The position numbers and the translations under genes were made by a program. DNA of 64,000 nt from Candidatus Nitrosocaldus schleperae (GTDB lineage: Archaea; Thermoproteota; Nitrososphaeria; Nitrososphaerales; Nitrosocaldaceae), in assembly GCA_013538805.1 (NCBI GenBank), contig JABXGR010000002.1, positions 1 to 64,000 of the forward strand. Reading direction: 5' to 3'. Under the pieces are notes generated by a model that worked only from the letters and a program-made list of their open reading frames with translations, was not told the origin of the DNA and did no database searches. Shown here piece by piece: positions 7,912 through 63,081 of the stretch (positions within the stretch are counted from its first letter, which is position 1; every line of letters starts with the position of its first letter).

Positions 7912-9530
7912 TGAGTATACAGAGGGGGGAGAATGGGCTTGTAAGGTTCTTCAAGTGGCTCTGGCAAGGGCTTGAGCGTACCATCTTCGTTGGGATAAAG
8001 TTCACCTATCCATCAAGGTTTGTAAGCCCCATGGGCTTTCTAGGCATGTTAACATTCATCACATTCATCATACTTGGCATAACTGGAGCATTGCTCATGT
8101 TCTACTATGAGCCCATATTGGATAGGGCATGGGATAGCGTAAAGACAATAAATAATACAATCCCCTATGGATTCCATATAAGGAATATACACTACCATGC
8201 ATCTAACACAATGGTATTCCTTGCTTTAGCACATATGTACTATCAATACTTCTCTGGAAGGTACAAGATAAGGAATGAGGTGCTATGGGTTACAGGTGTG
8301 ATACTTGGAACTGTAACCATACTCGAGGCATTCACTGGCTACGATATAATATACAATGAGAGGGCAGAACTTGCAATAAGTATTGCATCATCCCTAACCA
8401 ACTCTATACCAGTTATAGGACCACAGTTAAGGGAGATGGTATTTGGTGCTGGCTTTGCTGATTTCGTGCTTAGGTTCTATGCCCTTCATGTCTTCATCCT
8501 CCCAATAGTTATGCTAGGGCTCATGGCTGTTCACTTCCCCCGCTTCCTTGTATTCGATGTACCAATGGTTATGGCTGTAGCAGGGATGATATTCATAGTT
8601 GCAGGTGTATTCCCTGTAGAGTTGGGTAACAAGTTCGATCCTACAGTACCTCCAGATATAACCGTGCCTGAATGGTATCTGACTGGTATATATGCATTCC
8701 TTAGGACACAGTATGACAAGTTTGTAACTGGTGTGCTCTGGCCAGGGCTCTTCATAGCAGCATTAGCGATGATACCCTTCATAGATAGGTACAAGAAGCT
8801 TTCATGGAAGGATAGGCCATTGATAACTGCCATAGGCATAACTAGCCTAGCACAGATAATAGTTACTACCTATTGGGGCTTCTACATCGATCCTGACTTC
8901 AACAAGCCATTACTGGATAGGATAGTTATAGACCCTATCCTATTCTACACTGTTATGCTACTTCTAGTACCCTTGTCATTTGGCTTCACATACATGATGA
9001 TCAAGTTGGCAAAGCACTTTGAGGAACTTAACAAGAAGGAAGCTGCAGCAAGGAAGGCTAAGGGCACCACTGGCCTGAACATATCTATAAAGTGGGGCTG
9101 GTGGCTCCTTGCAGTACTCCTAGCATTCCAGGTATATCTTAATATAGCAGCATACTATGCTGGCATAAATGGATTCAAGAATGTTCAGTTGTTCATAATT
9201 GGGTTGGTGCTTGTAACATTCGCTGGAATATTCCACCTCTACAGATACCTCAATGAGCAGGTTAAGAAGGCAAAGCCTATGGCAAAACCTGCTCCAAAGG
9301 AGCCTACACCAAGGCCAGTTATAGAGCATAAGGAGAAAGAGGCAGAGGTGAAGCCTGTAGTAGAGGCAAAGGTACGGGCAAGTACGGTAGATAACGTTAA
9401 GTCTCCAGTAACCTCCTCTCTCCCTCCATCTACACAACCATCTAGCATGGGTTCTAATCCCAATCCTAATCCTGCTAGCAGTATTGGTTCTAATGTAAAG
9501 GCTAGTGGGGATTTGAGCGATATAGTATAA
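7908..9530 (+). CDS. Cytochrome b/b6-type subunit of complex III
   Basis: 540 residues with multiple hydrophobic helices. Histidine pairs that could bind the two b hemes are seen around HYHASNTMVFLALAHMYY and LHVFILPIVMLGLMAVHF. PEWY in DITVPEWYLTG is the conserved quinol-oxidation (Qo) site motif. The last ~90 residues form a Pro/Lys/Ser-rich cytosolic tail of low complexity that is not part of the family core. With the preceding Rieske gene (4-bp overlap) it forms the quinol-oxidising module of ammonia-oxidiser-type respiration. No cytochrome c1 gene is adjacent; the cupredoxin at 11383 is the plausible acceptor. Start is ATG 7908 or 7911. Confidence 0.93.
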   Translation: MMSIQRGENGLVRFFKWLWQGLERTIFVGIKFTYPSRFVSPMGFLGMLTFITFIILGITGALLMFYYEPILDRAWDSVKTINNTIPYGFHIRNIHYHASNTMVFLALAHMYYQYFSGRYKIRNEVLWVTGVILGTVTILEAFTGYDIIYNERAELAISIASSLTNSIPVIGPQLREMVFGAGFADFVLRFYALHVFILPIVMLGLMAVHFPRFLVFDVPMVMAVAGMIFIVAGVFPVELGNKFDPTVPPDITVPEWYLTGIYAFLRTQYDKFVTGVLWPGLFIAALAMIPFIDRYKKLSWKDRPLITAIGITSLAQIIVTTYWGFYIDPDFNKPLLDRIVIDPILFYTVMLLLVPLSFGFTYMMIKLAKHFEELNKKEAAARKAKGTTGLNISIKWGWWLLAVLLAFQVYLNIAAYYAGINGFKNVQLFIIGLVLVTFAGIFHLYRYLNEQVKKAKPMAKPAPKEPTPRPVIEHKEKEAEVKPVVEAKVRASTVDNVKSPVTSSLPPSTQPSSMGSNPNPNPASSIGSNVKASGDLSDIV

Positions 9531-23164: not shown

Positions 23165-23950
23165 ATGAGGCTAGAGATAGTTGACCTTCACGTTAACATA
23201 GACTCAAGGGAGATAATCAAGGGCTTGAACCTTACTGTTGAGAGTGGGCAAGTGCATGCTATAATGGGTCCAAATGGCTCTGGGAAGAGCACATTAGCAT
23301 ATACGCTGCTTGGGCATCCAAGGTATACAGTAAGCAGAGGAGATATAAGGATTGATGGGGAGAGCATCCTTAACCTATCAACAGATGAAAGGGCAAGGAA
23401 GGGTCTCTTCTTAGGCTTCCAGTACCCTGTTGAGATCTCTGGCGTTAGTTTCAGTAACTTCCTAAGGAATGCATACAACATAATGAACAAGTCCTATCAG
23501 GATAAGAGCAGGGAAGTATTCATAACTGTTAGAGAGTTCCATGATTACATGAAGAGGCAGATAGATGTTGTTGGGCTTGATGGCTCATTCCTTGCAAGGT
23601 ATCTTAACGAGGGCTTCTCTGGAGGCGAGAAGAAGAGGTCTGAAGTTCTCCAGATGTTAGTACTTAAACCTAGATTTGCTATACTTGATGAGCCAGACTC
23701 TGGTCTAGATATAGATGCTGTTAAAGCAGTTGCAAATGCTATAAACAACTTCATAAGCAACGATACCTCTGTTATGGTTATAACGCATTATGCTAGGATA
23801 TTGAGGTACCTTAAGAAGTTGGATTACGTGCATGTTATGGCTAATGGTAGAGTTGTTAGATCTGGAGGTAAGGAACTTGCTGAGATGCTTGAGGAGAAGG
23901 GCTATGGCTGGATAGAGAAGGAGGTAAAGGAGAGAGCAGATGGTGTGTAG
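23165..23950 (+). CDS. sufC: Fe-S cluster assembly ATPase SufC
   Basis: 261 residues of ABC-ATPase type. Walker A is GPNGSGKST, the signature is FSGGEKKRSE, Walker B is FAILDEPDSGLDID, and the switch is VITHYARIL. The GGEKKR signature and the ENNxPxx-like context are specific to SufC rather than to transporters. It energises the SufBCD scaffold. sufB and sufD lie 14 kb downstream as a separate operon, so the suf genes are split in two transcription units. Confidence 0.95.
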   Translation: MRLEIVDLHVNIDSREIIKGLNLTVESGQVHAIMGPNGSGKSTLAYTLLGHPRYTVSRGDIRIDGESILNLSTDERARKGLFLGFQYPVEISGVSFSNFLRNAYNIMNKSYQDKSREVFITVREFHDYMKRQIDVVGLDGSFLARYLNEGFSGGEKKRSEVLQMLVLKPRFAILDEPDSGLDIDAVKAVANAINNFISNDTSVMVITHYARILRYLKKLDYVHVMANGRVVRSGGKELAEMLEEKGYGWIEKEVKERADGV

Positions 23951-24007: not shown

Positions 24008-24571
24008 ATGGGAGTGCTTGTAGCAGTAGCACTCATAATAGTTGCACTTGCAGTAATAGCCAGCATTGGCATTGCTCATGCATCCCACTACACTGGCTAT
24101 AGATGGGCTCTACCATACACTTATTCATGTTATGACTCTTACAGTCTTAACAACGTAAGGATAGATGGGAGTACGCAAAGATACTCCTTAGTTGCAAGCG
24201 AGATAGATCAAGCAAGGAACAGTTGGAATAGCCTTCCATCCATATTTGAGATAAGTTGTAATAACTGGATAACTGCAGCGAGTTTTAATGCTGACTTCTT
24301 AGCAAGAACGTTCTGGAATCAGCAAGGTGGTTACTTGGTAGATGTTGATACAGAGATAAACAGTTATTACAGTTATGCTAGCAGTGGTAGATGCACTGTA
24401 CCACCTTACACATTAGATTATGTAATGAGGCATGAGTTTGGGCACTGGGTCATGTTTGATGATGTATTCTACTGGAACCCTAGCAGTGTAATGTATGGAG
24501 GTTATCATTGCCAGAGATGGGATAGCATAAAGTCATATGATAGTAATGAGCTTAGCAGTATATATGGGTGA
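24008..24571 (+). CDS. Secreted metzincin-like zinc metalloprotease (copy 1)
   Basis: 187 residues with a clear signal peptide (VAVALIIVALAVIASIGIAHA). The zinc motif is HEFGHWVMFDD: the HExxH pair plus Asp at position 11, where matrixins have His. Snapalysin-type enzymes also use Asp there. The Gly normally at position 8 is Met. A downstream SVMYGG fits a metzincin Met-turn. Several cysteines (C42-type, NNC/SGRC, YHCQ) may form disulfides. It should act outside the cell on proteins or peptides. It overlaps the next gene by 4 bp, and the two-gene unit recurs at 31960-33129, where the protease shares HEFGHWV, the position-11 Asp and the V-M-Y turn. Family assignment is by motif only. Confidence 0.82.
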   Translation: MGVLVAVALIIVALAVIASIGIAHASHYTGYRWALPYTYSCYDSYSLNNVRIDGSTQRYSLVASEIDQARNSWNSLPSIFEISCNNWITAASFNADFLARTFWNQQGGYLVDVDTEINSYYSYASSGRCTVPPYTLDYVMRHEFGHWVMFDDVFYWNPSSVMYGGYHCQRWDSIKSYDSNELSSIYG

Positions 24572-25131
24572 GTGAGAGTATGGGTACAAGGGCAAATATA
24601 ATAATAGCAGGAGTAAGCATAAGCGTAGCAGCATATCTTATACTGAGTTTCTTCACAAGCACAGGTATATTTGAGAAGAGGATGGGTGTTACTCATGCAG
24701 AGATAGATATGAGTATAGAGGAGATAGCAAGATGGGCAGATATAATAGTCATAGGTACTGTTGGTGATAGAATAGGAGTTAAGAGCCATGATGATGGGAA
24801 GATATACAGGGTTGTTGGAGAATTGGCTCTTAACATAGAGCAAGAGTTAACAGGTAATTACAACGATAAGGTTATAGTGTTGAAGACTGTTGGTGATGGT
24901 GAGAAGGTTATAAACATGAATGTAAGCCTAAAGAAAGGCGAGAGGGTATTACTCTTCCTTAACTATGTAACGACTGATCATCCATGGAAGGGAGAAGAGG
25001 GTTATCTTGTATGCTGCACTCAGCAGAAGTTCTCTATAGATGAGAATAACATAGCATACAATCCAAAGTATGGGAGTTACAAGTTGGATGAACTGATAGA
25101 GATCATAAAGAAGGCTAGAGAAGGCTTATAA
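24568..25131 (+). CDS. Membrane-anchored partner of the metalloprotease, TIMP/netrin-like OB-fold candidate (copy 1)
   Basis: 187 residues from GTG 24568, or 183 from ATG 24580. One N-terminal helix (IIIAGVSISVAAYLILSFF) places the rest outside the cell. The mature part has strands ADIIVIGTVGDR, a variable loop, a central EQELTGNYNDKVIVLKT strand, LKKGERVLLFLNY, and a C-terminal IDENNIAYNPKYG-helix segment. The order recalls the OB fold of TIMP/NTR domains (ADVVIxAxV ... KGxxxxVxVxT ... GxxYLLF). It is clearly homologous to 32554-33129. It is translationally coupled to the protease, so it could be an inhibitor, chaperone or anchor. The fold link is inference. Confidence 0.7.
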   Translation: MSESMGTRANIIIAGVSISVAAYLILSFFTSTGIFEKRMGVTHAEIDMSIEEIARWADIIVIGTVGDRIGVKSHDDGKIYRVVGELALNIEQELTGNYNDKVIVLKTVGDGEKVINMNVSLKKGERVLLFLNYVTTDHPWKGEEGYLVCCTQQKFSIDENNIAYNPKYGSYKLDELIEIIKKAREGL

Positions 25132-25221: not shown

Positions 25222-25929
25222 ATGAGCAGTGCACAAAGCATCCAGACCAAGGCTCAAGGCGAGGCTCAGCACACGTTCTTCAACTTCTCATTCTTCAAGG
25301 TTGATCAGAAGTGGAGATGGCTCAACGATATTACAAAGCAAGAGTCAGCAAAGGAGTTCATCTCAATACTTGAATCTGCATCTTCAGATCTGAAGTATAG
25401 ATCATATTCACTAGTTGGTCTAAGGGAGGATGCTGATTTTATGCTATGGTTTGCATCAGATGCACTAGAGAAGGTTCAAGGTGTAGTAGCAAGGCTGTAC
25501 AGAACAGTTCTAGGCAAGTACATAACCCCTGCATACGTTTACATCTCAGTCCTCAAGCCATCAACATACACTGGTAAGGCAGAGTCCTCATTCCTAAAGG
25601 GTGAGAAGCCACTCAAGTACGTTATAGTCTACCCATTCATAAAGAGTAGAGAGTGGTATCTATTACCATTTGAGGAGAGGAGGAGGATGATGGAGGAGCA
25701 TGCAATGGTTGGCAGAAAGTTCCCCATGGTAAGGTTGAATACATCCTACTCCTTTGGGCTTGATGATCAGGACTTTATGCTTGCGTTTGAGACCGATGAT
25801 ATATATGCATTCCATGAACTCGTTATGCAGTTGAGGGAGACTCAAGTAAGCAGGTATGTTGTTAAGGATACTCCCATGTTGGTAAGTATATATAAACCAA
25901 TAGAGGAGGTGATAAGAGACCTTGGCTAA
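25222..25929 (+). CDS. Chlorite dismutase-family heme protein, HemQ-like
   Basis: 235 residues. The core (FLKGEKPLKYVIVYPFIKSREWYLLPFEERRRMMEEHAMVGR, then LNTSYSFGLDDQDFMLAFETDD) matches the Cld/HemQ family; H in EEHAMVG corresponds to the proximal heme ligand region. HemQ members decarboxylate coproheme to heme b, true chlorite dismutases make O2 from chlorite. The setting next to siroheme-route heme genes favours the coproheme decarboxylase role, by inference. It overlaps the DUF1802 gene by 8 bp. Confidence 0.87.
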   Translation: MSSAQSIQTKAQGEAQHTFFNFSFFKVDQKWRWLNDITKQESAKEFISILESASSDLKYRSYSLVGLREDADFMLWFASDALEKVQGVVARLYRTVLGKYITPAYVYISVLKPSTYTGKAESSFLKGEKPLKYVIVYPFIKSREWYLLPFEERRRMMEEHAMVGRKFPMVRLNTSYSFGLDDQDFMLAFETDDIYAFHELVMQLRETQVSRYVVKDTPMLVSIYKPIEEVIRDLG

Positions 25930-26506
25930 CGTTGGTGCTAAAGCAGTTAACTGGCATGCACTCAAGGAGTGGGCCATAGTTGTTAGGGCAGTTGAGCAGG
26001 GCAGGCACTTCATCCTATTCAGGAAGGGAGGGATATTGGAGGATGGGTTCTCAGTAGCAAGCAATGAGTTCTTGCTATTCCCAACCTTTGAGCATCAGAG
26101 CAGGCAGTACATAAAGGATGAGTATAGGCTTGATTATGATATGCTGGAGGTTCATGCACCAGTAGATAAGGTTGTTATAAGATCAGCAGCAAGGGTAGCA
26201 TCATACTATGAGAGCAGTGACAGGTCTAGATTGCTTAAACTCGATAGATACCATATCTACAACGATCTCTTCATAGACTATAGGATGCAGTGGAACAGGG
26301 ATAAGCCTGTTAGCGTTATGCTTGTTAGAGCATATAGGCTTGAGGAGCCAATAGTGGTTGATATGAAGGGAGAGTACTATGGATGCAGATCATGGATAAG
26401 GCTTGTTAATGATGATCTCAAGGATGTTAGGGTAGGCAAGCCCGTTGTTGATGATTATAGGTTTGATAGGATAAAGAGGGAGGTTGATGGGGTGATGGCA
26501 GGATGA
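25922..26506 (+). CDS. DUF1802 family protein
   Basis: 194 residues. It shows the DUF1802 pattern: HALKEWAIVVRAVEQGRHFILFRKGGI and FLLFPTFEHQ, with a short motif-rich C-terminus. The biochemical function of the family is unknown. The start is a TTG (25922) inside the end of the HemQ-like gene, and the end overlaps the aldo/keto reductase ATG by 4 bp, so the three genes form one operon. The constant position next to hemQ suggests a link to heme or redox metabolism, but this is only context. Confidence 0.82.
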   Translation: MANVGAKAVNWHALKEWAIVVRAVEQGRHFILFRKGGILEDGFSVASNEFLLFPTFEHQSRQYIKDEYRLDYDMLEVHAPVDKVVIRSAARVASYYESSDRSRLLKLDRYHIYNDLFIDYRMQWNRDKPVSVMLVRAYRLEEPIVVDMKGEYYGCRSWIRLVNDDLKDVRVGKPVVDDYRFDRIKREVDGVMAG

Positions 26507-27492
26507 GGTATAGAAGGTTAGGGAAGAGTAACATACTTGTCTCTGAGATAGGCTTTGGTGCATGGACTATAGCATTGGATTGGTGGGGCAAGCAGATAGA
26601 TGATGATTATGCTATAAGGATGCTCAAACATGCATATGACCTTGGCATAAACTTCTTCGATACAGCAGATATATATGGGAAGGGGAGGAGTGAGAGGCTC
26701 CTAGCAAGGGCATTCAAGGATATGAGGGATGAGGTTGTAATATCAACGAAGTTTGGCTATGATATATACTCTAACGTAGAGCAGATAGGGCATAGTGAGT
26801 TACCCCAAAGATTTGATGCTAAATATGTTAGATTTGCATTAGAGAAGAGTTTAGAGCGTTTAGAGAGCAGTTATGTTGATGTTTATAACCTCCATAACCC
26901 AAAGATGTATGCCATAACACATGATCCACTCTTCCTAGCATTGGAGCAGTTAAGAGCAGAAGGGAGGATAAGGCATTATGGTGTTGCTTTAGGTCCAGCG
27001 ATAGGATGGAAGGATGAAGGTATATATGCTATGGAGAGGAGGAATGTTACTGCTCTACAGACTGTATATAACCTATTGGAGCAGGAGCCAGCAAGGCAGT
27101 TCTTCCCATATGCTAGAGCATATGATGTTGGTATACTGGTTAGGGTGCCAGATGCATCTGGAGTGCTTACAGGCAAACTTACAGTTAATACACAGTTGGA
27201 TAAGAACGATCATAGAGCATTCAGGAAGAGGGCATGGATAGAGGAGGCTAGCAAGAGGCTTGATATGCTTAAGCCTATAGCAGAGGCTCGAGGATGGAGC
27301 ATAAGAGAACTTGCAATAAAGTTCATACTCTCAGAGCAGTGTGTATCATCAGTGCTACCAACGGTAACCAGCATAGAGGAGTTGGAGGCATATGCAGCAA
27401 TCTCAGATGGCAAGTATCTGAGCAGTGATGAGTTGAATGCAATAAGAGAGATGTATGATAAGGACTTTGTATTGCTGCAGAGCATACAGTAA
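26503..27492 (+). CDS. Aldo/keto reductase
   Basis: 329 residues with the AKR catalytic tetrad visible: D and Y in FFDTADIYGKGRSE, K in VVISTKFGYD, H in YVDVYNLHNP. The NADP-binding C-terminal segment includes FILSEQCVSSVLPTVTSIEEL. It closes the HemQ-DUF1802-AKR operon with a 4-bp overlap. The substrate cannot be told from sequence. Confidence 0.92.
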   Translation: MRYRRLGKSNILVSEIGFGAWTIALDWWGKQIDDDYAIRMLKHAYDLGINFFDTADIYGKGRSERLLARAFKDMRDEVVISTKFGYDIYSNVEQIGHSELPQRFDAKYVRFALEKSLERLESSYVDVYNLHNPKMYAITHDPLFLALEQLRAEGRIRHYGVALGPAIGWKDEGIYAMERRNVTALQTVYNLLEQEPARQFFPYARAYDVGILVRVPDASGVLTGKLTVNTQLDKNDHRAFRKRAWIEEASKRLDMLKPIAEARGWSIRELAIKFILSEQCVSSVLPTVTSIEELEAYAAISDGKYLSSDELNAIREMYDKDFVLLQSIQ

Positions 27493-27543
27493 GCAGGCAA
27501 GAAACATAACATAATAAATAAGAGGTTGTAGCGATAGCGACTA

Positions 27544-27568
27544 CCTATTAATTGATAGAATTAATAGG
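27544..27568. terminator. Perfect 10-bp inverted repeat between convergent genes
   Basis: CCTATTAATT and AATTAATAGG flank a 5-base loop (GATAG). It sits between the ends of the aldo/keto reductase gene (+) and the siroheme decarboxylase gene (-), overlapping the latter's last codons. The placement suits a bidirectional terminator or mRNA 3'-end structure. Confidence 0.5.
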
Positions 27569-28598
27569 AATCCTCTACGAAGTACCTAACCCTCTCCTTC
27601 TTGAACTCTCTGGTTGAGAAGAGTATCCTGTAATCGCTTATGCCAACATGTGCTGCAAACTCCCTTGCTATACCCTCACATACCTCTTTGCTCTTTGCAT
27701 GTACCATGCTGTACAGGTTGTATGGCCAGTCTGGATAGGTTGGCCTTCTATAGCAGTGTGTAACCTGGGGGAATGATGCAAGAAGTGTACCAACCTCATC
27801 AACCCTTGCATCTGGCACTATCCATACAATCATACCATTCGCTATAAACCCAGCATTCCTATGCCTTAGTATTGCTGCAAACCTACGCATAACACCTATA
27901 CTCTCATAGTACTTTGCTCTAGCAAGATAATCCTCAACACTTATACCAAGCCTCCTTGCAGGTTCACTGAAAGGCTCACTTACAACCTCTATATCCTTCT
28001 GCAACTCCCGTATGAAGATCTTATCAACCTCATCAGGCTCAAAGTTAACATTTGGCGCTATTGCTGTGGATCTTGTACCTGTACTAGCCTCTACAGGCTT
28101 TATATCTGTTATATCATCACTACTCATATCAAGCCTTACACCTATCTTGTACAACTTGATTGTAGGGAGTATCATGTACCTCCTCACACCTTCAAGGGCA
28201 GCAAACCTCTCAACCTCACGCTTAACATTGCCATATGGGGGTACTGCTATTGTGAACCATAGATTGTAGTTTGGATCATCCCTCTCGTAGTTATGGCTAA
28301 CACCAGGATGCCTATTCACTGCCTCTGCTACATACTCTATCCTTGACTGCTCTACACTCATCGCTACTAGAGCACTCTTGTACTTCAACCTCCTAGTATC
28401 GAATATAGCATCTATCTCTCTTATGATCTGCTCATCCTTGAGCCTCCTTATCCTTGCAATGACCTCCTCTTCACTTATACCAAGCCTCTCACCTATTACA
28501 AGGAACGGTCTTGCAACTAGAGGGAACTCCCACTGTATGATGTTGAGTATCTCCCTATCTACTGCATCTAGTTGCTGTACTTGCATATACCTCCTCAT
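27561..28598 (-). CDS. ahbAB: Fused siroheme decarboxylase AhbA-AhbB
   Basis: 345 residues made of two Lrp/AsnC-like modules. Module one (about 10-160) has HTH VIGERLGISEEEVIARIRRL and the motif HNYERDDPNYNLWFTI. Module two (about 190-345) has a second HTH and HCYRRPTYPDWPYNLYSMVH. These H-Y-R and NLW/NLYSM motifs are diagnostic of siroheme decarboxylases (AhbA/AhbB, NirDLGH), not of transcription regulators. The enzyme removes two acetate carboxyls from siroheme to give 12,18-didecarboxysiroheme, the first step of the siroheme-dependent heme route. AhbA and AhbB are usually separate proteins; here they are one chain. The gene is divergent from sirC-hemA-hemB. Confidence 0.88.
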   Translation of the reverse strand: MRRYMQVQQLDAVDREILNIIQWEFPLVARPFLVIGERLGISEEEVIARIRRLKDEQIIREIDAIFDTRRLKYKSALVAMSVEQSRIEYVAEAVNRHPGVSHNYERDDPNYNLWFTIAVPPYGNVKREVERFAALEGVRRYMILPTIKLYKIGVRLDMSSDDITDIKPVEASTGTRSTAIAPNVNFEPDEVDKIFIRELQKDIEVVSEPFSEPARRLGISVEDYLARAKYYESIGVMRRFAAILRHRNAGFIANGMIVWIVPDARVDEVGTLLASFPQVTHCYRRPTYPDWPYNLYSMVHAKSKEVCEGIAREFAAHVGISDYRILFSTREFKKERVRYFVEDSY

Positions 28599-28645
28599 AT
28601 CAAAGTGGTTAATATTGGTAACTGTATGTATGTAACCAACCTTGG

Positions 28646-28687
28646 TTAGGCATACGTTTAGGCATATAGAAATGGGGTATTAGGCAT
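28646..28687. promoter_or_regulatory. Three phased TTAGGCAT direct repeats in the ahbAB/sirC divergent promoter region
   Basis: Exact TTAGGCAT copies start at 28646, 28658 and 28680, giving steps of 12 and 22 bp (about one and two helical turns). A palindrome ATGTATACAT follows at 28690-28699, then the sirC TATA box. The position suggests an operator for a regulator of heme synthesis. Confidence 0.5.
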
Positions 28688-28707
28688 GCATGTATACATA
28701 CCTCAAC

Positions 28708-28716
28708 CTATAAATA
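28708..28716 (+). promoter_or_regulatory. Putative TATA box of sirC-hemA-hemB
   Basis: CTATAAATA about 20-28 bp before ATG 28736, indicating a leaderless transcript. Confidence 0.55.
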
Positions 28717-28735
28717 AGATGTTAGCCTATGCTAG

Positions 28736-29416
28736 ATGATCAACTTGATAGTTGACCTCAACATACAGGGCAAGAGCGTTCTAATCATAGGTGCTGGTGT
28801 TGAGGGTACTAGGAAGGTTAAAGCACTTCTAGGGCAAGGTTGTAAGAGCATAACAGTAGTAAGCAATAGGTTCAACAGATCCCTGCTAAATCTTGCTAAA
28901 GAGGGTAAGATAAATTTGGTTAAGAGGAGCCTCAAGGATCCATCCATACTCTATGAGTTTGAGAGACCATTCTTGGTTATGGCAGCAACCAACGATAAGG
29001 CATTGAATAGAAGTATAGTTGAGAGGGCAAAGGCTATGGGTATACTTGCATATGCTGCAGATGACCCAACAATAAGTGATTTCATCCATCCTGCTGTTAT
29101 CAACATCCATGATACACTCTTCATAGCAATATCAACTAGAGGGAGTAGCCCAGCCATGGCTAGAATGCTAAGGATAAAGGCTGAGAGGGTACTCAAGAGG
29201 CTTATAAGAGAGGAGGATATAGAGATGATAAGGCTAGCAGATTATGCTAGAAGTATGGCTATGAAGTATATAAGCGATATCCATGCTAGAAAGGATTACA
29301 TATACTCAGTTATAAGGGATAGAGAGATAGTAGATATGCTCAAGAGTAAGAGGCTTGAGGAGGCTAGAGCAAGAGCATTAACCCTTCTTAGCAGTTATGG
29401 GGGTAGCGTTAGGTGA
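28736..29416 (+). CDS. Precorrin-2 dehydrogenase / siroheme synthase N-domain protein
   Basis: 226 residues. The NAD-binding motif KSVLIIGAGVEGTRKVKALLGQG opens the protein. MAATNDKALNRSIVERAK and the dimerisation segment DDPTISDFIHPAVINIHDTLFIAISTRGSSPAMAR are typical of SirC/Met8 proteins. It oxidises precorrin-2 to sirohydrochlorin and may also insert iron; no separate ferrochelatase lies in the window. Its stop overlaps the hemA start by 4 bp. It feeds both siroheme and the AhbAB-dependent heme route. Confidence 0.9.
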   Translation: MINLIVDLNIQGKSVLIIGAGVEGTRKVKALLGQGCKSITVVSNRFNRSLLNLAKEGKINLVKRSLKDPSILYEFERPFLVMAATNDKALNRSIVERAKAMGILAYAADDPTISDFIHPAVINIHDTLFIAISTRGSSPAMARMLRIKAERVLKRLIREEDIEMIRLADYARSMAMKYISDIHARKDYIYSVIRDREIVDMLKSKRLEEARARALTLLSSYGGSVR

Positions 29417-30762
29417 TGAACATCCTAAATGCTAGGATAACATACAGGCAGATACCTATACACATGCTTGAGCGATTCACATTCAAGGATACAGCATCAA
29501 TATATAGGATGAAGGACAAGCATGGTTTTGATGAGCTGCTCATCCTCCAGACATGCAACAGGGTAGAGGTTTATGCAGCAAGCAGTAAGGTTGATGACCC
29601 ATCATCCTTGCTAGATATCTGGCATGAGCATCTTAACATCGATAGAGGAGTGCTGGAGAAGAGTGTTGAGTTGAGCAAAGGCAAGGATGCTATACTTCAT
29701 CTCTTCAGGCTTGCATCTGGTCTTGACTCACTTGTTGTAGGGGAGGATCAGATACTTGGACAGGTGAAGCGTGCATTAGATAATGCTAGGAAGGGTAATG
29801 GAGTTGACTCATACCTTAGCATGCTCTTTGAGAAGGCAGTTAGGGTTGGTAGCAGGGTTAGGGCAAGCACAAACATAAACAAGGGTAGCATCTCCTATGG
29901 CTCTATAGCAGTCAAACTTGCAGAGGAGCACCTCCATGGGCTTTATGGTAGGAGGATAATGCTAATAGGCTCTGGTGAGGCAGCAAGCATGGTAGCAAAG
30001 CCCCTCTTGAGTAAGGGTATTGAGTTCATGGTTACAAGCAGAACAATGGAGAGGGCAAAGGCATTCTCTGAGAGTGTTGGAGGAAAGCCTATGGAGTTTG
30101 ATCATGCTATGAGTGAGTTGGATAAAGTAGATGCACTATTCATTGCTACTACAGCACCATACTGGCTTATAACATATGAGAAGATGGTAGAGGTTATGGA
30201 GAGGAAGAAGAAGAGGAGTATGGGCATGAACAATATCGATGGAAGGATTGAGCAAGGATCATCATCTTCATCTACATCTATCCTTCCTCTTCTCCTACTA
30301 CTAGACCTCTCAAACCCAAGCACAGTAGAGCCTAGGGTAGATAGCATAGATGGTGTTAAGGTGATAAGGTTCGATGAGATAGCCAGCATGGTTGAGAGGA
30401 ATATAGATGCAAGGATGAAGGAGGTTAGTGAGGCTGAGCGTATAGTTAGGGAAGAGGTTGATGCTATGGAGGCTAGGTTAAGGAGGTTTGAGGTAGAGCC
30501 AATAATAGACTCACTCTTCAGGAGTGTTGATAGGATAAGGAGGAGAGAGTTGGATAAGGCGTTGAGTATGCTCAACCTTGATGAGCATAGCAAGCAGGTA
30601 GTTGAGCAGATGAGTTATGCAATAGTTGAGAGCATCCTATCCATACCTATGGATGAGTTGAGGAAGGCATCAGAGAATGGGGATGTTGAGTTTATAAGAA
30701 CTGCAAGTAGGTTATTCAAGTATGGGCATGGTTTGGAGGAGCAGTATAACCATACGAGGTGA
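29413..30762 (+). CDS. hemA: Glutamyl-tRNA reductase
   Basis: 449 residues. The catalytic Cys lies in LLILQTCNRVEVYAA; GEDQILGQVK and the NADPH-binding IMLIGSGEAASMVAKPL motifs follow, and the C-terminal dimerisation helices are present. It reduces Glu-tRNA(Glu) to glutamate-1-semialdehyde, the committed step of C5 tetrapyrrole synthesis. A Ser/Thr low-complexity insert (QGSSSSSTS) with a basic lead sits around residues 258-295, where relatives have a short loop. It overlaps sirC by 4 bp; hemB follows 10 bp later. Confidence 0.95.
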   Translation: MMNILNARITYRQIPIHMLERFTFKDTASIYRMKDKHGFDELLILQTCNRVEVYAASSKVDDPSSLLDIWHEHLNIDRGVLEKSVELSKGKDAILHLFRLASGLDSLVVGEDQILGQVKRALDNARKGNGVDSYLSMLFEKAVRVGSRVRASTNINKGSISYGSIAVKLAEEHLHGLYGRRIMLIGSGEAASMVAKPLLSKGIEFMVTSRTMERAKAFSESVGGKPMEFDHAMSELDKVDALFIATTAPYWLITYEKMVEVMERKKKRSMGMNNIDGRIEQGSSSSSTSILPLLLLLDLSNPSTVEPRVDSIDGVKVIRFDEIASMVERNIDARMKEVSEAERIVREEVDAMEARLRRFEVEPIIDSLFRSVDRIRRRELDKALSMLNLDEHSKQVVEQMSYAIVESILSIPMDELRKASENGDVEFIRTASRLFKYGHGLEEQYNHTR

Positions 30763-30772
30763 ATAGATAGTA

Positions 30773-31846
30773 TTGAAGGGCTCAAACCTTACTGAGGAGG
30801 AGAGATCACAAGAGCAAGAGCAAGAGCAAGAGCAACAACATTCCAAATCAAGCATACCAAGCATAACATTCCCATCTACTAGGTTAAGGAGGTTGAGGAA
30901 GAGCAGTCCAATAAGGAGCATGCTTATGGAGAGTAGGATAAACCTAGATAGCCTTGTATATCCTGTATTCGTGCAAGAGGGTATAGAGGATAAGGAGCCT
31001 ATCCAATCTATGCCAGGGCTAAGCAGGCTCCCATTATCCATGCTCAACGATGAGGCTAGGCACCTCATAGAGTTAGGGATAAGAGCAGTACTGCTATTTG
31101 GCATCCCAAGTATCAAGGATGAGTATGCATCATCTGCATATGCTGAGGATGGGATAGTGCAGAGGGCAGTATCATCATTAAGGAGGGAGTTCAGTAGTGA
31201 TGAACTTACAATAATCACAGATGTATGCACATGCCAGTACACAACACATGGCCACTGTGGCCTGCTCAAAGGTAATAGAGTAGATAATGATAGTACACTT
31301 GATCTTCTTGCAAGGATAGCAGTAAGCCATGCCTATGCTGGTGCAGATATAGTTGCTCCATCAGCAATGATGGATGGTCAGGTTAGAGCAATAAGGGATG
31401 CACTTGATGATCATGGCTTCAAGGACGTGCTAATAATGTCATATTCAGCAAAGTACTCCTCTTCTCTATATGCACCATTTAGAAGTGCAGCAGACTCAGC
31501 ACCAAGGTTTGGGGATCGCAAGAGTTACCAACTCTACTATGCAAATGCTAGGGAAGCGTTGAGAGAGATTGAGCAGGATATACTTGAGGGTGTTGATATA
31601 ATAATGGTTAAGCCAGCCATAGCATACCTTGATATAATAAGGCTTGCTAGAGATACGTTCAAGCATCCATTGGCAGCGTATAGTGTCTCTGGAGAGTATG
31701 CATTGGTGAAGGCAGCATCCATGCAAGGGTTAATAGATGAGGATGCTGTTATAATGGAGTTGCTAACATGCATAAGGCGTGCTGGTGCAGATATAATAAT
31801 AACATACTTTGCAAAGAGAGTAGCAGAGATAATGAATGGTAAGTGA
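30773..31846 (+). CDS. hemB: Porphobilinogen synthase (delta-aminolevulinate dehydratase)
   Basis: 357 residues. The zinc-site motif DVCTCQYTTHGHCG is present, and Schiff-base lysine regions are seen in MSYSAKYSSSLYAPFR and IIMVKPAIAYLDII. It condenses two ALA into porphobilinogen. The frame opens at TTG 30773; the first ~25 residues are a Glu/Gln/Ser extension (SQEQEQEQEQQ) ahead of the family start FPSTRLRRLR, so this lead is either a real low-complexity extension or partly untranslated. It is third in the sirC-hemA-hemB operon. Confidence 0.93.
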   Translation: MKGSNLTEEERSQEQEQEQEQQHSKSSIPSITFPSTRLRRLRKSSPIRSMLMESRINLDSLVYPVFVQEGIEDKEPIQSMPGLSRLPLSMLNDEARHLIELGIRAVLLFGIPSIKDEYASSAYAEDGIVQRAVSSLRREFSSDELTIITDVCTCQYTTHGHCGLLKGNRVDNDSTLDLLARIAVSHAYAGADIVAPSAMMDGQVRAIRDALDDHGFKDVLIMSYSAKYSSSLYAPFRSAADSAPRFGDRKSYQLYYANAREALREIEQDILEGVDIIMVKPAIAYLDIIRLARDTFKHPLAAYSVSGEYALVKAASMQGLIDEDAVIMELLTCIRRAGADIIITYFAKRVAEIMNGK

Positions 31847-31928
31847 TCAACGATTGATTGATTGGTAGATATGGGATGCATTTATATTATCTAAGAGTAT
31901 AAATACATAGGTTCAATTATTAAGATCG

Positions 31929-31939
31929 CTATATATATC
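31929..31939 (+). promoter_or_regulatory. Putative TATA box of the second metalloprotease pair
   Basis: CTATATATATC about 21-31 bp before ATG 31960, nearly identical to the element before copy 1 of the pair. It points to 31960, the signal-peptide frame, as the start of translation. Confidence 0.5.
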
Positions 31940-31959
31940 AGATGTAAGTAATTCATCTA

Positions 31960-32121
31960 ATGCTGTCAATAAGACAGATAGTAATAATTGGTATAGTATT
32001 TATGAGCAGTGTAACAGCCACAGCATTAGCAACCCATGTACCATTATATTCTGGATGCAGATGGTGGAGTGCAGTAGAGCATGTACAGTATAACTATTCT
32101 AGATACATTAGGAATACCTAG
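31960..32121 (+). pseudogene. Signal-peptide fragment of the copy-2 metalloprotease, out of frame with its catalytic domain
   Basis: The frame from ATG 31960 encodes a typical signal peptide (QIVIIGIVFMSSVTATALA) followed by THVPLYSGCRWWS, which lines up with ASHYTGYRWALP of copy 1. It then runs into a TAG at 32119. The catalytic domain continues in the next frame from about 32078, so a single +1 shift within 32078-32118 would join them into one protein of the same layout as copy 1. It may be a sequence error, a real inactivating mutation, or recoding. Confidence 0.7.
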
Positions 32122-32536
32122 AAGCACATGGGTAAGCGAACTTGATGCTGCTAGACAAGCATGGAATGGACATTCTAGATTTACACTGTATGAAGCAGCA
32201 AGTAATCCTCATACAGTATACGCAGGCATTCCTCCATCTCGCACTGCCCTTGCAGTAACCACTACAGTCTGTCTGCCAGGTTATCTACAGGATGCAGATA
32301 CGGTATTTAATAATACAGTAGCTTGGGCTACAGATGGTCGAACATGGCCAGATTTTAGGCGTGTAGCGGTACATGAATTCGGGCATTGGGTTAGATTAAA
32401 GGATACTTCTACACTGAGCGGTAATAACTATTGCTATCAGTATACTGTTATGTATGACTGCTTCCCTGTTGTCGCTGGCTATAGAACGTTATTCGAAGAA
32501 GATAAACAGTGGTTGAGATCTATATATGGTAGATAG
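32081..32536 (+). CDS. Metzincin-like zinc metalloprotease catalytic domain (copy 2), apparent +1 frameshift from its signal peptide
   Basis: 151 residues in the frame opening at ATG 32081; a TAG at 32075 blocks this frame just upstream. STWVSELDAARQAWNGHSRF aligns with SLVASEIDQARNSWNSLPSI of copy 1. The zinc motif HEFGHWVRLKD keeps HExxH and the Asp at position 11; TVMYD fits the Met-turn; the protein ends IYGR like copy 1 (IYG). As written it has no export signal, whereas the preceding out-of-frame fragment (31960-32121) supplies one. All catalytic residues are conserved, which argues against long-standing decay. It sits between hemB and hemL, splitting the heme cluster. Confidence 0.75.
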   Translation: MYSITILDTLGIPRSTWVSELDAARQAWNGHSRFTLYEAASNPHTVYAGIPPSRTALAVTTTVCLPGYLQDADTVFNNTVAWATDGRTWPDFRRVAVHEFGHWVRLKDTSTLSGNNYCYQYTVMYDCFPVVAGYRTLFEEDKQWLRSIYGR

Positions 32537-32553
32537 ATAGAGGTGTTGGATTA

Positions 32554-33129
32554 ATGGCTAGAGGGATTGGGTTTGGATGGCTGATAGTTGTTACAGCAGT
32601 TAGTGGTATAGCAGCATATATGTTGATAGCACAACCAACATTGATAAGATCCAATACAAGTTCTATGTTAGAGTTGCTTCCTTTAGATAAACTTGTAGAG
32701 CATTCAAAGATAATAGTAGTAGGAGAGATAGTAGAGCAGAAACCAAGTGTAAAAGACATGGTAGAGAATACAGACGTGCAGATAGCATACACAGAATACA
32801 TTCTAAAGGTAGAAAGATATCTATTGAACAATTCAGAATATGAAGAAGGCGATACGCTTATTTTCAAGAACCTAGGAGGCAAGGTAGGTATTGAGGAGTT
32901 TATAGTAGAAGACTCCCCAGAATTCAAAGTAGGGGATAGAGTTCTCCTCCTACTAACAGATGAATGGGATGACTTCCTTAAAGGCTCATGGAATGTAGTT
33001 GGTTGGAGGCAAGGAGCATACACCATCAAGGATGGTATAGCATACAACCAGTTCTACAAGGAGAGAAGTATGCCAGAGGATGAACTTGTAAAGACTATAG
33101 AGGAAATAATAAAGAAGAAGAGTAAATAA
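32554..33129 (+). CDS. Membrane-anchored partner of the metalloprotease, TIMP/netrin-like OB-fold candidate (copy 2)
   Basis: 191 residues. One N-terminal helix (GWLIVVTAVSGIAAYMLIA) anchors an outside domain with SKIIVVGEIVEQ, EGDTLIFKNLGG, KVGDRVLLLLTDEWDD and IKDGIAYNQFY, matching the strands of the copy-1 partner (ADIIVIGTV, GERVLLFLN, IDENNIAYN). The pairwise similarity is moderate overall but the block order is the same. A purine-rich GAGGTG site precedes the ATG. Position after the protease is conserved. Role as inhibitor, chaperone or co-anchor is inference. Confidence 0.7.
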   Translation: MARGIGFGWLIVVTAVSGIAAYMLIAQPTLIRSNTSSMLELLPLDKLVEHSKIIVVGEIVEQKPSVKDMVENTDVQIAYTEYILKVERYLLNNSEYEEGDTLIFKNLGGKVGIEEFIVEDSPEFKVGDRVLLLLTDEWDDFLKGSWNVVGWRQGAYTIKDGIAYNQFYKERSMPEDELVKTIEEIIKKKSK

Positions 33130-33190
33130 CACATCAATTTAATTTATTTTGCTCTATGAAGGATAAGATTATAACCGATGATGAATAAGC

Positions 33191-34549
33191 ATGGTTATGA
33201 GGCGATCGATTAGGGTTAAGAAGAGTATCAAAGATACTAATAGTGGTAACAGCAGTAGCCTTAACCCAAGACTCTTTGAGAGAGCCTCAAGGCTTATGGT
33301 TAAAGGTGTTAATAGCCCGATAAGGTACTTTGAACCATACCCATTCTTCGTTAAGCATGCTAGAGGATGCAAGGTTTATGATGTTGATGGCAACTCCTAT
33401 ATAGACTACTGCATGGGCTATGGTGCACTACTCCTTGGACATGCATTCAAGGATGTTATAGATGATGTCAAGGCACAACTCTCAAGAGGCTCTCTATACT
33501 GTATGCCAACTGAGCATGAGGTTGAGCTTGCTGAACTGCTCAGCAGATGCATACCATGTGCAGAGATGATAAGGCTTCTCAACACAGGTATGGAGGCTAC
33601 ATACCATGCCATAAGGATAGCAAGGGCATACACAAAGAGGAGGAAGATAATCAAGTTCGATGGCTGCTACCATGGCTCCCATGACTATACACTTGTTAAA
33701 TCATATGCTAGCATGGATGAGATGCTCTCCTCTGCAATGCTGGAAGGCATTGCAAGCAACACAATCATCCTACCATACAATGATATAGATGCAGTAAGGG
33801 ATGCTATGCAGAAGGTAGGTAGTGATGTTGCAGCAATAATAGTAGAGCCAGTGATGGCCAATGCTGGATTGATACCTCCATCCAATGGATTCCTTGAGAC
33901 CCTTAGCAGTGTCTGCAAGGAGCATGGCTCACTACTTATATTCGATGAGGTTGTTACAGGGTTCAGGCTAGCATTGGGAGGAGCACAGGAGTACTATAAC
34001 ATCAAGCCAGATATAGCAACATTTGCAAAGGCAATGGCAAACGGATTCCCAATAGCATGCATTGCAGGGAGAAGGGATGTTATGAGTGTACTTGCACCAG
34101 AGGGCATGCTATACCAAGGGAGCACGTTTGCTGGCAACCCTGTATGTGTTACAGCAGCAATAGCAACGATAAGGTATCTGATGAGGCATAGATCAATATA
34201 CAAGTTGATGGAGAAGAGGTGCAACGAACTTGTAAGTATGATAAGTGATATGGTTAGGGATAATGGGATTGAGGCAAGGATCAACTCAATAGCATCAATG
34301 CTCCAGATATTCTTTACAAGCAATGAGGTTAGAGATTATGCTACTGCTAGACTATCAAACACAACGCTATTCAAATCATACTTTAATGGGCTCCTTAAGC
34401 AAGGAGTATTCATACCACCATCACAGTTCGAGGTATGCTTCCTCTCACTTGCACACGATGATACCATCATAAGGAGTACAGGGGAGAAGATAGGTAGAGT
34501 ATTGGCAAGGGAGTTGAGAAGAGGGGTTGAGGTTACTGGTAGGGAGTAG
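33191..34549 (+). CDS. hemL: Glutamate-1-semialdehyde 2,1-aminomutase
   Basis: 452 residues. Class-III aminotransferase features are MGYGALLLGHA, GCYHGSHDYTLV, IFDEVVTGFRLALGG, and the PLP lysine in ATFAKAMANGFPIA. It converts glutamate-1-semialdehyde to ALA. The first ~25 residues are basic and Ser/Asn-rich before the family start LFERASRLMVKGVNSP. Its end overlaps hemC by 23 bp. The protease pair separates it from hemB. Confidence 0.93.
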   Translation: MVMRRSIRVKKSIKDTNSGNSSSLNPRLFERASRLMVKGVNSPIRYFEPYPFFVKHARGCKVYDVDGNSYIDYCMGYGALLLGHAFKDVIDDVKAQLSRGSLYCMPTEHEVELAELLSRCIPCAEMIRLLNTGMEATYHAIRIARAYTKRRKIIKFDGCYHGSHDYTLVKSYASMDEMLSSAMLEGIASNTIILPYNDIDAVRDAMQKVGSDVAAIIVEPVMANAGLIPPSNGFLETLSSVCKEHGSLLIFDEVVTGFRLALGGAQEYYNIKPDIATFAKAMANGFPIACIAGRRDVMSVLAPEGMLYQGSTFAGNPVCVTAAIATIRYLMRHRSIYKLMEKRCNELVSMISDMVRDNGIEARINSIASMLQIFFTSNEVRDYATARLSNTTLFKSYFNGLLKQGVFIPPSQFEVCFLSLAHDDTIIRSTGEKIGRVLARELRRGVEVTGRE

Positions 34550-35498
34550 AGGGAGCAGGCTCTCGTTGGTGCAGAGTGAGCATGTTATATCACTACTTAA
34601 GCATGTGGATAGCAGTATAGAGTTTGAGATAGTTACTATAAAGACCAAGGGTGATATCGATGCTAGACCACTCTACACTATAGATGGTAAGGGTGTATTT
34701 GAGAAGGAGGTTGATCAGGCAGTGCTCTCTGGTAGTGTGCATCTTGCTGTCCATAGCATGAAGGATGTACCATCAGATCTGCATGAGGATCTTCTGATAG
34801 CATCTGTGCCTAGAAGGGATAGTCCATACGATATGCTTATAAGCAAGGCTCAAGGCCATAGCCTTACAAGCCTCCCAAGCAAGAGTGTTATAGGCACTAG
34901 TAGTCTAAGAAGGATTGTGCAACTAAAGAGGGTTAGAGGTGATCTTGTGGTGAAGCCAATAAGGGGTAATGTGGATACAAGGATAGGGAAGATGCTCGAT
35001 GGGGAGTATGATGCAGTAGTACTTGCAGAGGCTGGGCTAGCAAGGCTAGGGCTATTATCAGGATTGGTGCAGAGGTCATGCTTCTTTGAGAGGCTTAGCA
35101 AGGATATAATGATGCCAGCCCCAGGGCAGGGTGCACTTGCAGTAGTTGTAAGGAAGGATAGCAAAGATCTTATCAGGTTGTTGAAGAGGATAGAGGATAG
35201 AGCATCTAGAGCAGAGATAGAGGCTGAGAGGGTACTGTTGAGGGAGATGAATGCTGGATGTAGGATGCCTCTAGGTGCACTTGCAAGAGCATACCCATCA
35301 GGCCTTCTAACATTAGAGGCATGCATGATCTCTGCAGATGGTAGAGATGTTGTAAGGGCAGGTTCATCATCAAGCATTGATGATGCTGAAGGATTAGGGG
35401 CAAGGGTTGCAAGATCCTTGTTGGAGCAAGGAGCAAGGAGGATATCTGAGGAGTGGAGGTTGATTGACTTTGAGCATAACAATCTTAGCATCCAGTGA
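34527..35498 (+). CDS. hemC: Porphobilinogen deaminase (hydroxymethylbilane synthase)
   Basis: 323 residues. GSRGSRLSLVQSEHV, VHSMKDVPSDL and the dipyrromethane-cofactor Cys in NAGCRMPLGALA define the family. It links four porphobilinogens into hydroxymethylbilane. The start is a TTG (34527) inside hemL, needed to include the conserved LLVGSRGSRLSL strand; no ATG precedes it. Confidence 0.94.
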   Translation: MRLLVGSRGSRLSLVQSEHVISLLKHVDSSIEFEIVTIKTKGDIDARPLYTIDGKGVFEKEVDQAVLSGSVHLAVHSMKDVPSDLHEDLLIASVPRRDSPYDMLISKAQGHSLTSLPSKSVIGTSSLRRIVQLKRVRGDLVVKPIRGNVDTRIGKMLDGEYDAVVLAEAGLARLGLLSGLVQRSCFFERLSKDIMMPAPGQGALAVVVRKDSKDLIRLLKRIEDRASRAEIEAERVLLREMNAGCRMPLGALARAYPSGLLTLEACMISADGRDVVRAGSSSSIDDAEGLGARVARSLLEQGARRISEEWRLIDFEHNNLSIQ

Positions 35499-35525
35499 GA
35501 GAAGGAGAAAGGAGGAGGGCTAGAG

Positions 35526-36380
35526 ATGGGTAGCAATGGTAAGAGTAGTAATAAAGATGGTAATAGCAATGGTAACAATAATAGCAACAGTAATGGTAAC
35601 AGCAAGATAAACAGCAACAGCAAAGGCAAGGTATACATAGTTGGTGCTGGTCCAGGGGATCCAGGATTATTAACCATCAAGGCATTGAAGGTTATAGAGC
35701 AAGCAGATGTTGTGCTTTATGATAGGCTTGTTAGTGATGGGGTACTTGGATTTATACCTGAGCATGTTGAGAAGGTTTACGTTGGTAGAGAGGTTGGGGA
35801 TGATTATGCACATCAGGATACTACCAATATGCTCATGCTCAAGTATGCTAGAGAAGGTAAGATGGTTGTTAGGCTTAAAGGAGGGGATCCATTCATATTT
35901 GGGAGGGGAGGGGAGGAGGCAGAGTTTCTGGTAGAGCATGGCATAGAGTTTGAGATCATACCAGGGATAACCTCTGCCATAGCTGCACCAGCATACGCAG
36001 GTATACCCTTAACCCATAGAGCATACTCATCATCTCTAGCAATAATCACTGGGCATGAGGCTCTGAAGGATAAGCATGGTATTGATATAGCAGGTATAGC
36101 AAAGGCAGTAGATACTCTTGTAGTGCTTATGGGCGTATCAAACCTCAAGGATACTGTAGATACTCTATTGAGCAATGGTATTGCTGAGGATACGCCAATT
36201 GCTATAGTAGAGTATGGTACTATTAAAGATAAGCAGAGGGTTACCATATCAACACTCAAGAAGATAGTTGAGTATGCAAGGGATGTTAGACCCCCTGCTG
36301 TAATAGTTATAGGTAGAACTGTGGATCTTGCAGAGAGGTTAAGATGGTACAAGGAGTGCAAGTATAGATCGTTCAGGTGA
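35526..36380 (+). CDS. cobA: Uroporphyrinogen-III C-methyltransferase
   Basis: 284 residues. After a 35-residue Asn/Ser/Gly/Lys-rich lead comes the SUMT core: VYIVGAGPGDPGLLTIKAL, VLYDRLVS, VRLKGGDPFIFGRGGEEAEFL, GITSAIAAPAYAGIPLTHR. It makes precorrin-2 from uroporphyrinogen III using SAM, feeding SirC. It follows hemC by 27 bp and precedes hemD by 6 bp. The low-complexity N-terminus is encoded by AAT/AGT/GGT repeats and is not part of the family. Confidence 0.95.
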   Translation: MGSNGKSSNKDGNSNGNNNSNSNGNSKINSNSKGKVYIVGAGPGDPGLLTIKALKVIEQADVVLYDRLVSDGVLGFIPEHVEKVYVGREVGDDYAHQDTTNMLMLKYAREGKMVVRLKGGDPFIFGRGGEEAEFLVEHGIEFEIIPGITSAIAAPAYAGIPLTHRAYSSSLAIITGHEALKDKHGIDIAGIAKAVDTLVVLMGVSNLKDTVDTLLSNGIAEDTPIAIVEYGTIKDKQRVTISTLKKIVEYARDVRPPAVIVIGRTVDLAERLRWYKECKYRSFR

Positions 36381-36386
36381 TTTACT

Positions 36387-37244
36387 ATGCAGAAGATCAT
36401 ACTTATCACAAGGGATAGGATGGAGGTGAGAGAGGATGGGGAGAGTAATGCTAGCAGTAGCAGTAATATTAAGAGCATGATTGCAGAGTTGGAAGGGAAG
36501 GGCTTCAACCTTGTGCTTCATAAGACCATAGATGTTGTAAGGGATGAGGAGAGGGTCATCAATGCATTGAATAGGTTCATCTCATCAGAGTATGACTTCA
36601 TAGTATTCATGAGCGTTAGTGCCGTTAGGTTCATTATTGATGCTATACATGCTAATGGTCTTGAGCCTAGCATACTCAATGATAGATGTTACGTTATTGC
36701 AGTTGGTCCAAGCACTAGGGATGAGTTGGTTAAGAATGGTGTAAAGGTAGACCTCATCCCTTCAAGGTACTCATCCTATGGGCTAATAGAACTCTTCAGA
36801 TCAATCAAGGATGATCCTAAGTATAGTGATAAGGTTAGGGTATTCATACCAAGGAGTAGAGAGGCAAGTACTCTCCTTGTTGATGCCTTAACCTCTCTTG
36901 GATTCAGGGTTGATGAGGAGCATATCTACAGGATAGTGCCAAGTAGGCATGATGGATGGAAGAAGGTTGCAGAGTACCTTGCAAATGGGAGTTTACATTA
37001 TATAATCTTCACTAGTTCATCATCTGTTAACGCATTCTTTACACTTATTAACGAGTATAGCAAGGATGATACTATTATAGATGCTATCCTGAATAATGGT
37101 ACTGGTATAGTTGCAATAGGCCCATTAACTGCAGATACACTTAGAGCCTATGGCCTTAACCCATATGTTGCTGATGAGCATACAGTACATGGCACGCTTA
37201 AATTATTACTGAAGATCGTGGAAGATATTGAATATAATCCATGA
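36387..37244 (+). CDS. hemD: Uroporphyrinogen-III synthase
   Basis: 285 residues with weak but recognisable HemD pattern: FIVFMSVSAVRFIIDAI, VIAVGPSTRDEL, HYIIFTSSSSVNAFFTLI and GIVAIGPLTADTLRAYGL. It closes and inverts ring D of hydroxymethylbilane. It ends the hemL-hemC-cobA-hemD operon, which together with hemA/hemB covers the full C5 route to uroporphyrinogen III. HemD sequences are poorly conserved, but context is strong. Confidence 0.9.
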   Translation: MQKIILITRDRMEVREDGESNASSSSNIKSMIAELEGKGFNLVLHKTIDVVRDEERVINALNRFISSEYDFIVFMSVSAVRFIIDAIHANGLEPSILNDRCYVIAVGPSTRDELVKNGVKVDLIPSRYSSYGLIELFRSIKDDPKYSDKVRVFIPRSREASTLLVDALTSLGFRVDEEHIYRIVPSRHDGWKKVAEYLANGSLHYIIFTSSSSVNAFFTLINEYSKDDTIIDAILNNGTGIVAIGPLTADTLRAYGLNPYVADEHTVHGTLKLLLKIVEDIEYNP

Positions 37245-54712: not shown

Positions 54713-54744
54713 TGAATAGAGAAGAATTACTGACAGGGTTAAGG

Positions 54745-55062: not shown

Positions 55063-55160
55063 ACCTGTACTTCTCTGGCATGGTTATTAAACTATTTGAT
55101 TACTGCAAGGAATCATATTTATGTATGTGGAGAGGAAGATGTCATGGATGTGTAAGATGT

Positions 55161-55337: not shown

Positions 55338-55381
55338 TCCTTATACACATTTATTATATTCTTACTATCATCCTCCTATCT

Positions 55382-59033: not shown

Positions 59034-63081
<4,048 letters not shown>

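Follow-up and report, generated by a model that had tools for sequence, protein, structure and literature searches.

Two known pathways of late heme synthesis are relevant here, the siroheme-dependent pathway (AhbAB, AhbC, AhbD) and the bacterial coproporphyrin-dependent pathway (HemE, CgoX, CpfC, ChdC). In the former, AhbC normally takes the C2 and C7 acetates off didecarboxysiroheme by radical S-adenosylmethionine (radical-SAM) chemistry. In the latter, the last enzyme HemQ/ChdC decarboxylates coproheme using two H2O2 (PMC5157759). According to a report on the archaeon Haloferax volcanii, its PitA protein has a ChdC-type domain and occurs together with AhbAB and without HemE, CgoX or CpfC, and a delta-pitA strain requires heme aerobically while a delta-ahbD strain requires it only anaerobically; HemQ as aerobic last step in archaea was thus published previously, and its authors did not settle where coproheme comes from in air (PMC5746218). 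Here we describe a heme gene block in a 64,000-nucleotide window (positions 1 to 64,000 of contig JABXGR010000002.1, forward strand) of Candidatus Nitrosocaldus schleperae, in which a hemQ gene lies close to a gene for a fused AhbA-AhbB protein (AhbAB). The source genome is a 1.45 Mb draft (97% complete), and the genomes of its order are called ammonia-oxidising archaea (AOA) below, a label taken from the named relatives of their HemQ proteins. On sequence evidence, we suggest with a probability of about 0.68 that the late heme module of AOA would be a hybrid of the two known pathways plus one step without a recognised enzyme.

Parts of this picture were already in print. In the available text of Storbeck 2010, Nitrosopumilus maritimus and Sulfolobus acidocaldarius carry ahb-nirD/H (one gene for both) and lack ahb-nirJ1/J2, and heme synthesis in both organisms was doubted; HemQ was not connected with the question in that text (PMC3004389). 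A further paper likewise describes marine AOA without ahb-nirJ1/J2, notes that the known late heme genes are missing and calls for further screening (PMC4010524), and HemQ or AhbD are already listed as alternative final steps of the siroheme route in another paper (PMC8587615). Our literature search, which left out most subscription journals, found no publication that connects HemQ and the Ahb route with AOA. HemQ together with Ahb genes (Haloferax) and missing ahbC/ahbD (Nitrosopumilus) were therefore already known, but HemQ-linked loss of AhbC and a gene cassette with an aldo/keto reductase (AKR) look new.

The hemQ gene (25222-25929, + strand, 235 aa) is followed on the same strand by genes for a DUF1802 protein (25922-26506, 194 aa) and an AKR (26503-27492, 329 aa), and the gene for the fused siroheme decarboxylase AhbAB lies on the opposite strand (27561-28598, 345 aa). 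HemQ matched PF06778 with 215 bits (cut-off 25, E-value 6.8e-64) and was 93% identical to the protein of a Ca. Nitrosocaldus metagenome-assembled genome and 96% identical to that of archaeon HR04, which makes the source organism very probably a thermophilic AOA. Both halves of AhbAB exceeded their curated thresholds in NCBIfam (AhbB 262.7 bits, cut-off 125; AhbA 253.9 bits, cut-off 140), and its best solved relative was the fused NirD-like protein 4ch7 (247 bits). A first-pass annotation of this DNA had described a fused AhbA-AhbB protein and a HemQ-family gene 1.6 kb away, and both were confirmed (the spacing is 1631 bp); the DUF1802 and AKR genes, which are also included in its span (25222-28598), had been left undiscussed. 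In a set of 33 loci (31 AOA, 2 bacterial), 29 of the 31 from AOA had the order hemQ-DUF1802-AKR, the contigs of the remaining 2 stopping before the AKR gene, and because of this recurrence the arrangement is not due to chance. Neighbour counts were based on 71 AOA stretches, 2 of them without hemQ, and ahbAB and hemQ lay within one stretch in 64 of the remaining 69.

Key residues and phylogeny indicated that the window protein is of the ChdC type. Its closest solved structures by sequence were the coproheme decarboxylases 9miq (129 bits) and 6xub (115 bits), and chlorite dismutase (Cld) 4m09 scored lower (81 bits). The ChdC residue set Y137, K141, W145 and H160 (radical Tyr, Lys, Trp and proximal His) was invariant in 100 of 100 AOA HemQ sequences, with R205 in 99 and S210 in 98 of them. 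In a tree of 55 sequences, AOA HemQ formed one clade with bacterial ChdC and with archaeal HemQ of hemE-containing operons (support 100/100), and the same branch held fragments of 6xub, 9miq and 1t0t, but the long branches urge caution and the tree contained no Cld. A second clade comprised the HemQ proteins of f28, f21, f7, f52 and TA0507. AOA thus share the last enzyme and its key residues with the bacterial coproporphyrin-dependent pathway, but they are without HemE and HemH. HemQ was also found in hem operons with hemA, hemC, hemB, hemL, hemE and hemH in G004, G019, G024 and G080. Six archaeal stretches (L063, L064, L065, L066, L080 and L085) have HemQ inside hem operons with hemE, adjoined by hemH in four of them, and represent the bacterial-type coproporphyrin pathway in archaea.

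The source genome has 22 radical-SAM genes found by PF04055, and all of them were scanned against NCBIfam. Neither AhbC (best 54.5 bits, cut-off 650) nor AhbD (best 68 bits, cut-off 500) was found among them, and HemE and HemH had no match in the genome. The AhbC cut-off of 650 bits was also missed by genuine-looking Thermoproteota AhbC, so absence was judged at E<=1e-20, a threshold that also picks up other SPASM proteins, which makes presence counts generous and absence counts firm; the AhbD model was applied to the radical-SAM genes of this genome only. Since no AhbD equivalog was present among the 22 genes, HemQ is the only recognisable enzyme here for the conversion of coproheme to heme b. 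Since AhbC, HemE and HemH are all missing, AOA have no recognised coproheme-making enzyme, and without HemE and HemH their coproheme cannot derive from coproporphyrin III by the bacterial route. With the siroheme-dependent pathway this genome shares the fused AhbAB but not AhbC and AhbD. Haloferax is alike in joining a ChdC-type domain with AhbAB in an archaeon, but it still has both ahbC and ahbD, and PitA bears an extra ABM domain (PMC5746218), whereas AOA have a single-domain HemQ, the AKR cassette and no recognisable ahbC or ahbD. AOA are a cleaner case than Haloferax because neither AhbC nor AhbD is recognisable.

The distribution of these genes was analysed at two levels, in 120 genomes sampled from the class, of which 99 fall into the window's own order, and in 299 genomes sampled from the phylum. 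Within the order, 98 genomes had HemQ and 96 had AhbA above its cut-off, only one (G115) gave a match to the AhbC model at E<=1e-20, and none of the 120 class genomes had AhbC over the curated cut-off. HemE and HemH were each over cut-off in 1 of 99 genomes, both times in G080, a genome that lacks AhbAB and carries hemE and hemH in one operon; with no match to either in our genome, HemQ acting on a HemE/HemH route in AOA was ruled out. The match in G115 (L168, G115:C1:1100287-1102398) consists of two neighbouring radical-SAM genes of the SPASM type without linkage to heme genes; the pair is nearer to the TIGR04053, NirJ2 and AhbD models, yet below their cut-offs. In the phylum, 81 genomes contained HemQ, 126 contained AhbA and 204 gave a match to the AhbC model. 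AhbAB without HemQ occurred in 48 genomes, every one of which had an AhbC-model match, and among the 78 genomes with both AhbAB and HemQ such a match was found in 16 and absent from 62, namely 59 AOA and three members of f28 (G175, G185 and G305), a group that appears to be Sulfolobaceae-like. Loss of AhbC was restricted to HemQ-containing genomes, in at least two lineages; this is a correlation over few lineages, and the genome counts are non-independent events. AhbC-like and AhbD-like genes can adjoin in other f28 genomes (G341).

In 67 of the 69 AOA stretches with hemQ, the AKR gene is co-oriented with hemQ and comes next, either immediately or behind DUF1802. In one of the two exceptions (G073), hemQ has been relocated and the AKR gene adjoins AhbAB instead; in the other (G107), there is no AKR near hemQ, AhbAB is absent and HemQ has lost its proximal His. 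Related AKRs adjoin hemQ in G010 and AhbAB in G210, and these two AKRs pair at 100/100 and their HemQs at 100/96. These patterns indicated that the AKR tracks the AhbAB-HemQ combination. At the positions which we take to be the catalytic tetrad, Tyr58 and His131 were conserved in 97 of 97 sequences and Lys83 in 96 of 97, and the Asp at position 53 was replaced by Glu in 81 of 97 but kept in the proteins of the window and of G010. Among candidates for the missing conversion of didecarboxysiroheme to coproheme, the AKR, putatively as catalyst or helper, has the closest gene linkage. G107 (L075), which belongs to the AOA order and measures 0.8 Mb, retains hemA, hemB and cysG, and its HemQ is decayed (proximal His160 changed to Cys, long branch in the tree); it is possibly a symbiont that stopped its own heme synthesis.

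The DUF1802 gene always adjoins hemQ where present, but it was found in only 51 of the 120 class genomes, is missing in many complete AOA genomes and has been lost in many Nitrosopumilus-like ones. In G096 (L153) it is disrupted while the AKR gene persists. Thus, DUF1802 is dispensable, since it can be disrupted or absent with the AKR staying. Its predicted fold is ASCH/PUA-like (5gus, Z 10.2, root-mean-square deviation (rmsd) 3.3, 131 aligned), and a sequence search of solved structures gave no match. DUF1802 was therefore rejected as the missing enzyme, being patchy, decayed in one genome and of a fold that is no obvious catalyst. An apparent DUF1802-AKR fusion in G116 (L155) was also ruled out, because the two genes do not share a frame and the open reading frame of the AKR is merely over-extended.

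The whole heme gene block spans 25222-37244, and profile matches of the window's open reading frames showed that it covers the steps from glutamyl-tRNA to precorrin-2 and onward to siroheme, in addition to AhbAB and HemQ. Beyond ahbAB it contains, all on the + strand, genes for precorrin-2 dehydrogenase (CysG N-terminal domain, CysG-N; 28736-29416, TIGR01470, 108 bits, cut-off 62), glutamyl-tRNA reductase HemA (29413-30762, TIGR01035, 308 bits, cut-off 210), porphobilinogen synthase HemB (30773-31846, NF006762, 466 bits, cut-off 297), glutamate-1-semialdehyde aminomutase HemL (33191-34549, NF000818, 500 bits, cut-off 398), hydroxymethylbilane synthase HemC (34527-35498), uroporphyrinogen-III C-methyltransferase CobA (35526-36380) and uroporphyrinogen-III synthase HemD (36387-37244, PF02602, 5e-44). 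As read from these genes, HemA, HemL, HemB, HemC, HemD and CobA would lead from glutamyl-tRNA through uroporphyrinogen III to precorrin-2, on which CysG-N would act, and by homology the fused AhbAB would convert siroheme to 12,18-didecarboxysiroheme. A step other than AhbC, probably oxygen-tolerant, would then strip two acetate chains to give coproheme, and the AKR may supply this acetate removal as catalyst or helper. Finally, HemQ with two H2O2 would convert two propionates of coproheme to vinyls and so yield heme b in AhbD's place. Loss of two acetic acids from didecarboxysiroheme is redox-neutral by formula arithmetic, and work on the related NirJ describes that the ring A and B acetates become lactones in air (PMC12505453). 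An aerobic organism may employ another catalyst than AhbC for deacetylation. HemQ likely substitutes for AhbD, as the first-pass annotation had proposed, and the ChdC residues, the tree and the lack of AhbD among the 22 radical-SAM genes make this plausible. The same annotation had let AhbC lead to Fe-coproporphyrin III, which found no support, because AhbC was not found here nor in 98 of the 99 genomes of the order and its presence in this organism is not supported. So the idea of a hybrid heme pathway was supported as to HemQ and not as to the AhbC supply of coproheme, for which HemE/HemH are absent too; the observation was right and its interpretation half right.

Several points weigh against the hybrid pathway. 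The route is not closed, because no enzyme was recognised that would turn didecarboxysiroheme into coproheme. HemQ is under the cut-off of the NCBIfam actinobacterial HemQ equivalog (NF042928 HemQ_actino, 168 bits vs 235), and the distal Gln/Ala position is Leu in AOA HemQ. G010 and G210 have the AKR yet retain AhbC-model matches, so that the AKR there is not just a stand-in for AhbC, and in the AhbC-less f28 genomes no AKR was found near hemQ (G175, G305) or near AhbAB (G175, G185, G305). A wider version of the hybrid pathway, in which HemQ and the AKR together would be an oxygen-tolerant replacement of both radical-SAM steps from didecarboxysiroheme to heme b and would have allowed an AOA ancestor turning obligate aerobe to shed the oxygen-sensitive enzymes AhbC and AhbD, we regard as distinctly unlikely.

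A rather doubtful alternative is that a highly diverged radical-SAM enzyme, unseen by the AhbC and AhbD models, deacetylates and perhaps also does the last step, with HemQ, as in Haloferax, being no more than an aerobic alternative. The genome does contain further radical-SAM genes to which no function is assigned (L010, L012, L013, L007, L022 and a B12-type set), and the models were built on distant lineages, AhbC/AhbD-like pairs of Thermoproteota also being far below the cut-offs. But the nearest candidates, L010, L012 and L013 (TIGR03961-like, 67-103 bits), were not linked to the heme cluster in any stretch examined, and their type is lacking even from several single-contig AOA genomes; since 65 of the 120 class genomes gave no match to it at E<=1e-14, it was rejected as a universal AhbC. 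We consider it very improbable that HemQ alone does both steps, its ferryl/tyrosyl radical expelling the acetates of didecarboxysiroheme before the propionates are decarboxylated, with AhbC and AhbD dispensable. This would fit the absence of AhbC-model matches from HemQ-containing genomes only (62 of 78 vs 0 of 48, in AOA and the three f28 genomes), the reactive propionates share rings A and B with the acetates, and the cofactor of ChdC is the substrate's own iron, which didecarboxysiroheme also bears. However, we know of no deacetylating activity of HemQ, 14 of the 17 f28 genomes with HemQ retain an AhbC-model match, and a pattern over few lineages is statistically weak.

That the HemQ-like protein is a Cld or general peroxidase unrelated to heme synthesis is hardly credible, although PF06778 takes its name from chlorite dismutase. 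The predicted fold was dropped as a discriminator, since it fits ChdC 9mhq (Z 24.5, rmsd 2.1, 212 aligned) and Cld 4m05 (Z 22.9, rmsd 2.1, 206 aligned) nearly equally. Against a Cld stand the fixed position of HemQ within the heme cluster, its near-universal presence in AOA and its decay in G107, the genome that lost AhbAB. Moreover, where Clds hold a catalytic distal Arg, AOA HemQ has no conserved Arg (L172 in 97 of 100 sequences, R171 in 34 of 100), the distal column having been placed via the Geobacillus glutamine (position after PMC5157759) in an alignment that held no Cld sequence.

Other features of the window include the gene for SufC (23165-23950, + strand), the usual gene upstream of hemQ in AOA (59 of 69 stretches). 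A gene pair occurs twice among the heme genes (24008-25131 and 32081-33129), each copy coding for a small HEFGHW-motif protein and then for one that matches nothing in Pfam; the HEFGHW-motif protein at 32081 had a weak matrixin match (E 0.0017), and the second gene of the 24008-25131 pair is present again in L025 and was not detected in L026. The beta subunit of a 2-oxoacid:ferredoxin oxidoreductase (60997-63081, 694 aa) contains an intein close to its CPGC motif, with matches to Intein_splicing (42.9 bits, cut-off 35.8) and LAGLIDADG_3 (51 bits), and its aligned relatives in L027 and L170 have 322-325 aa, too short for an intein. ARAGORN found a tRNA of 100 bases with unknown anticodon at 55241-55340, perhaps intron-bearing, and an Rfam scan of 54500-56000 gave no match at the gathering threshold.

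AOA are aerobes, and their complex III needs heme b; the window itself codes for a consumer of heme b, a cytochrome b subunit (7908-9530, + strand, PF00033, 2e-28). Heme synthesis in AOA has been an open question in print (PMC4010524), and a short testable gene list results from our analysis: AhbAB, HemQ, one AKR and DUF1802. The result points to an undiscovered coproheme-making reaction in air, and the Haloferax report noted the same gap (PMC5746218).

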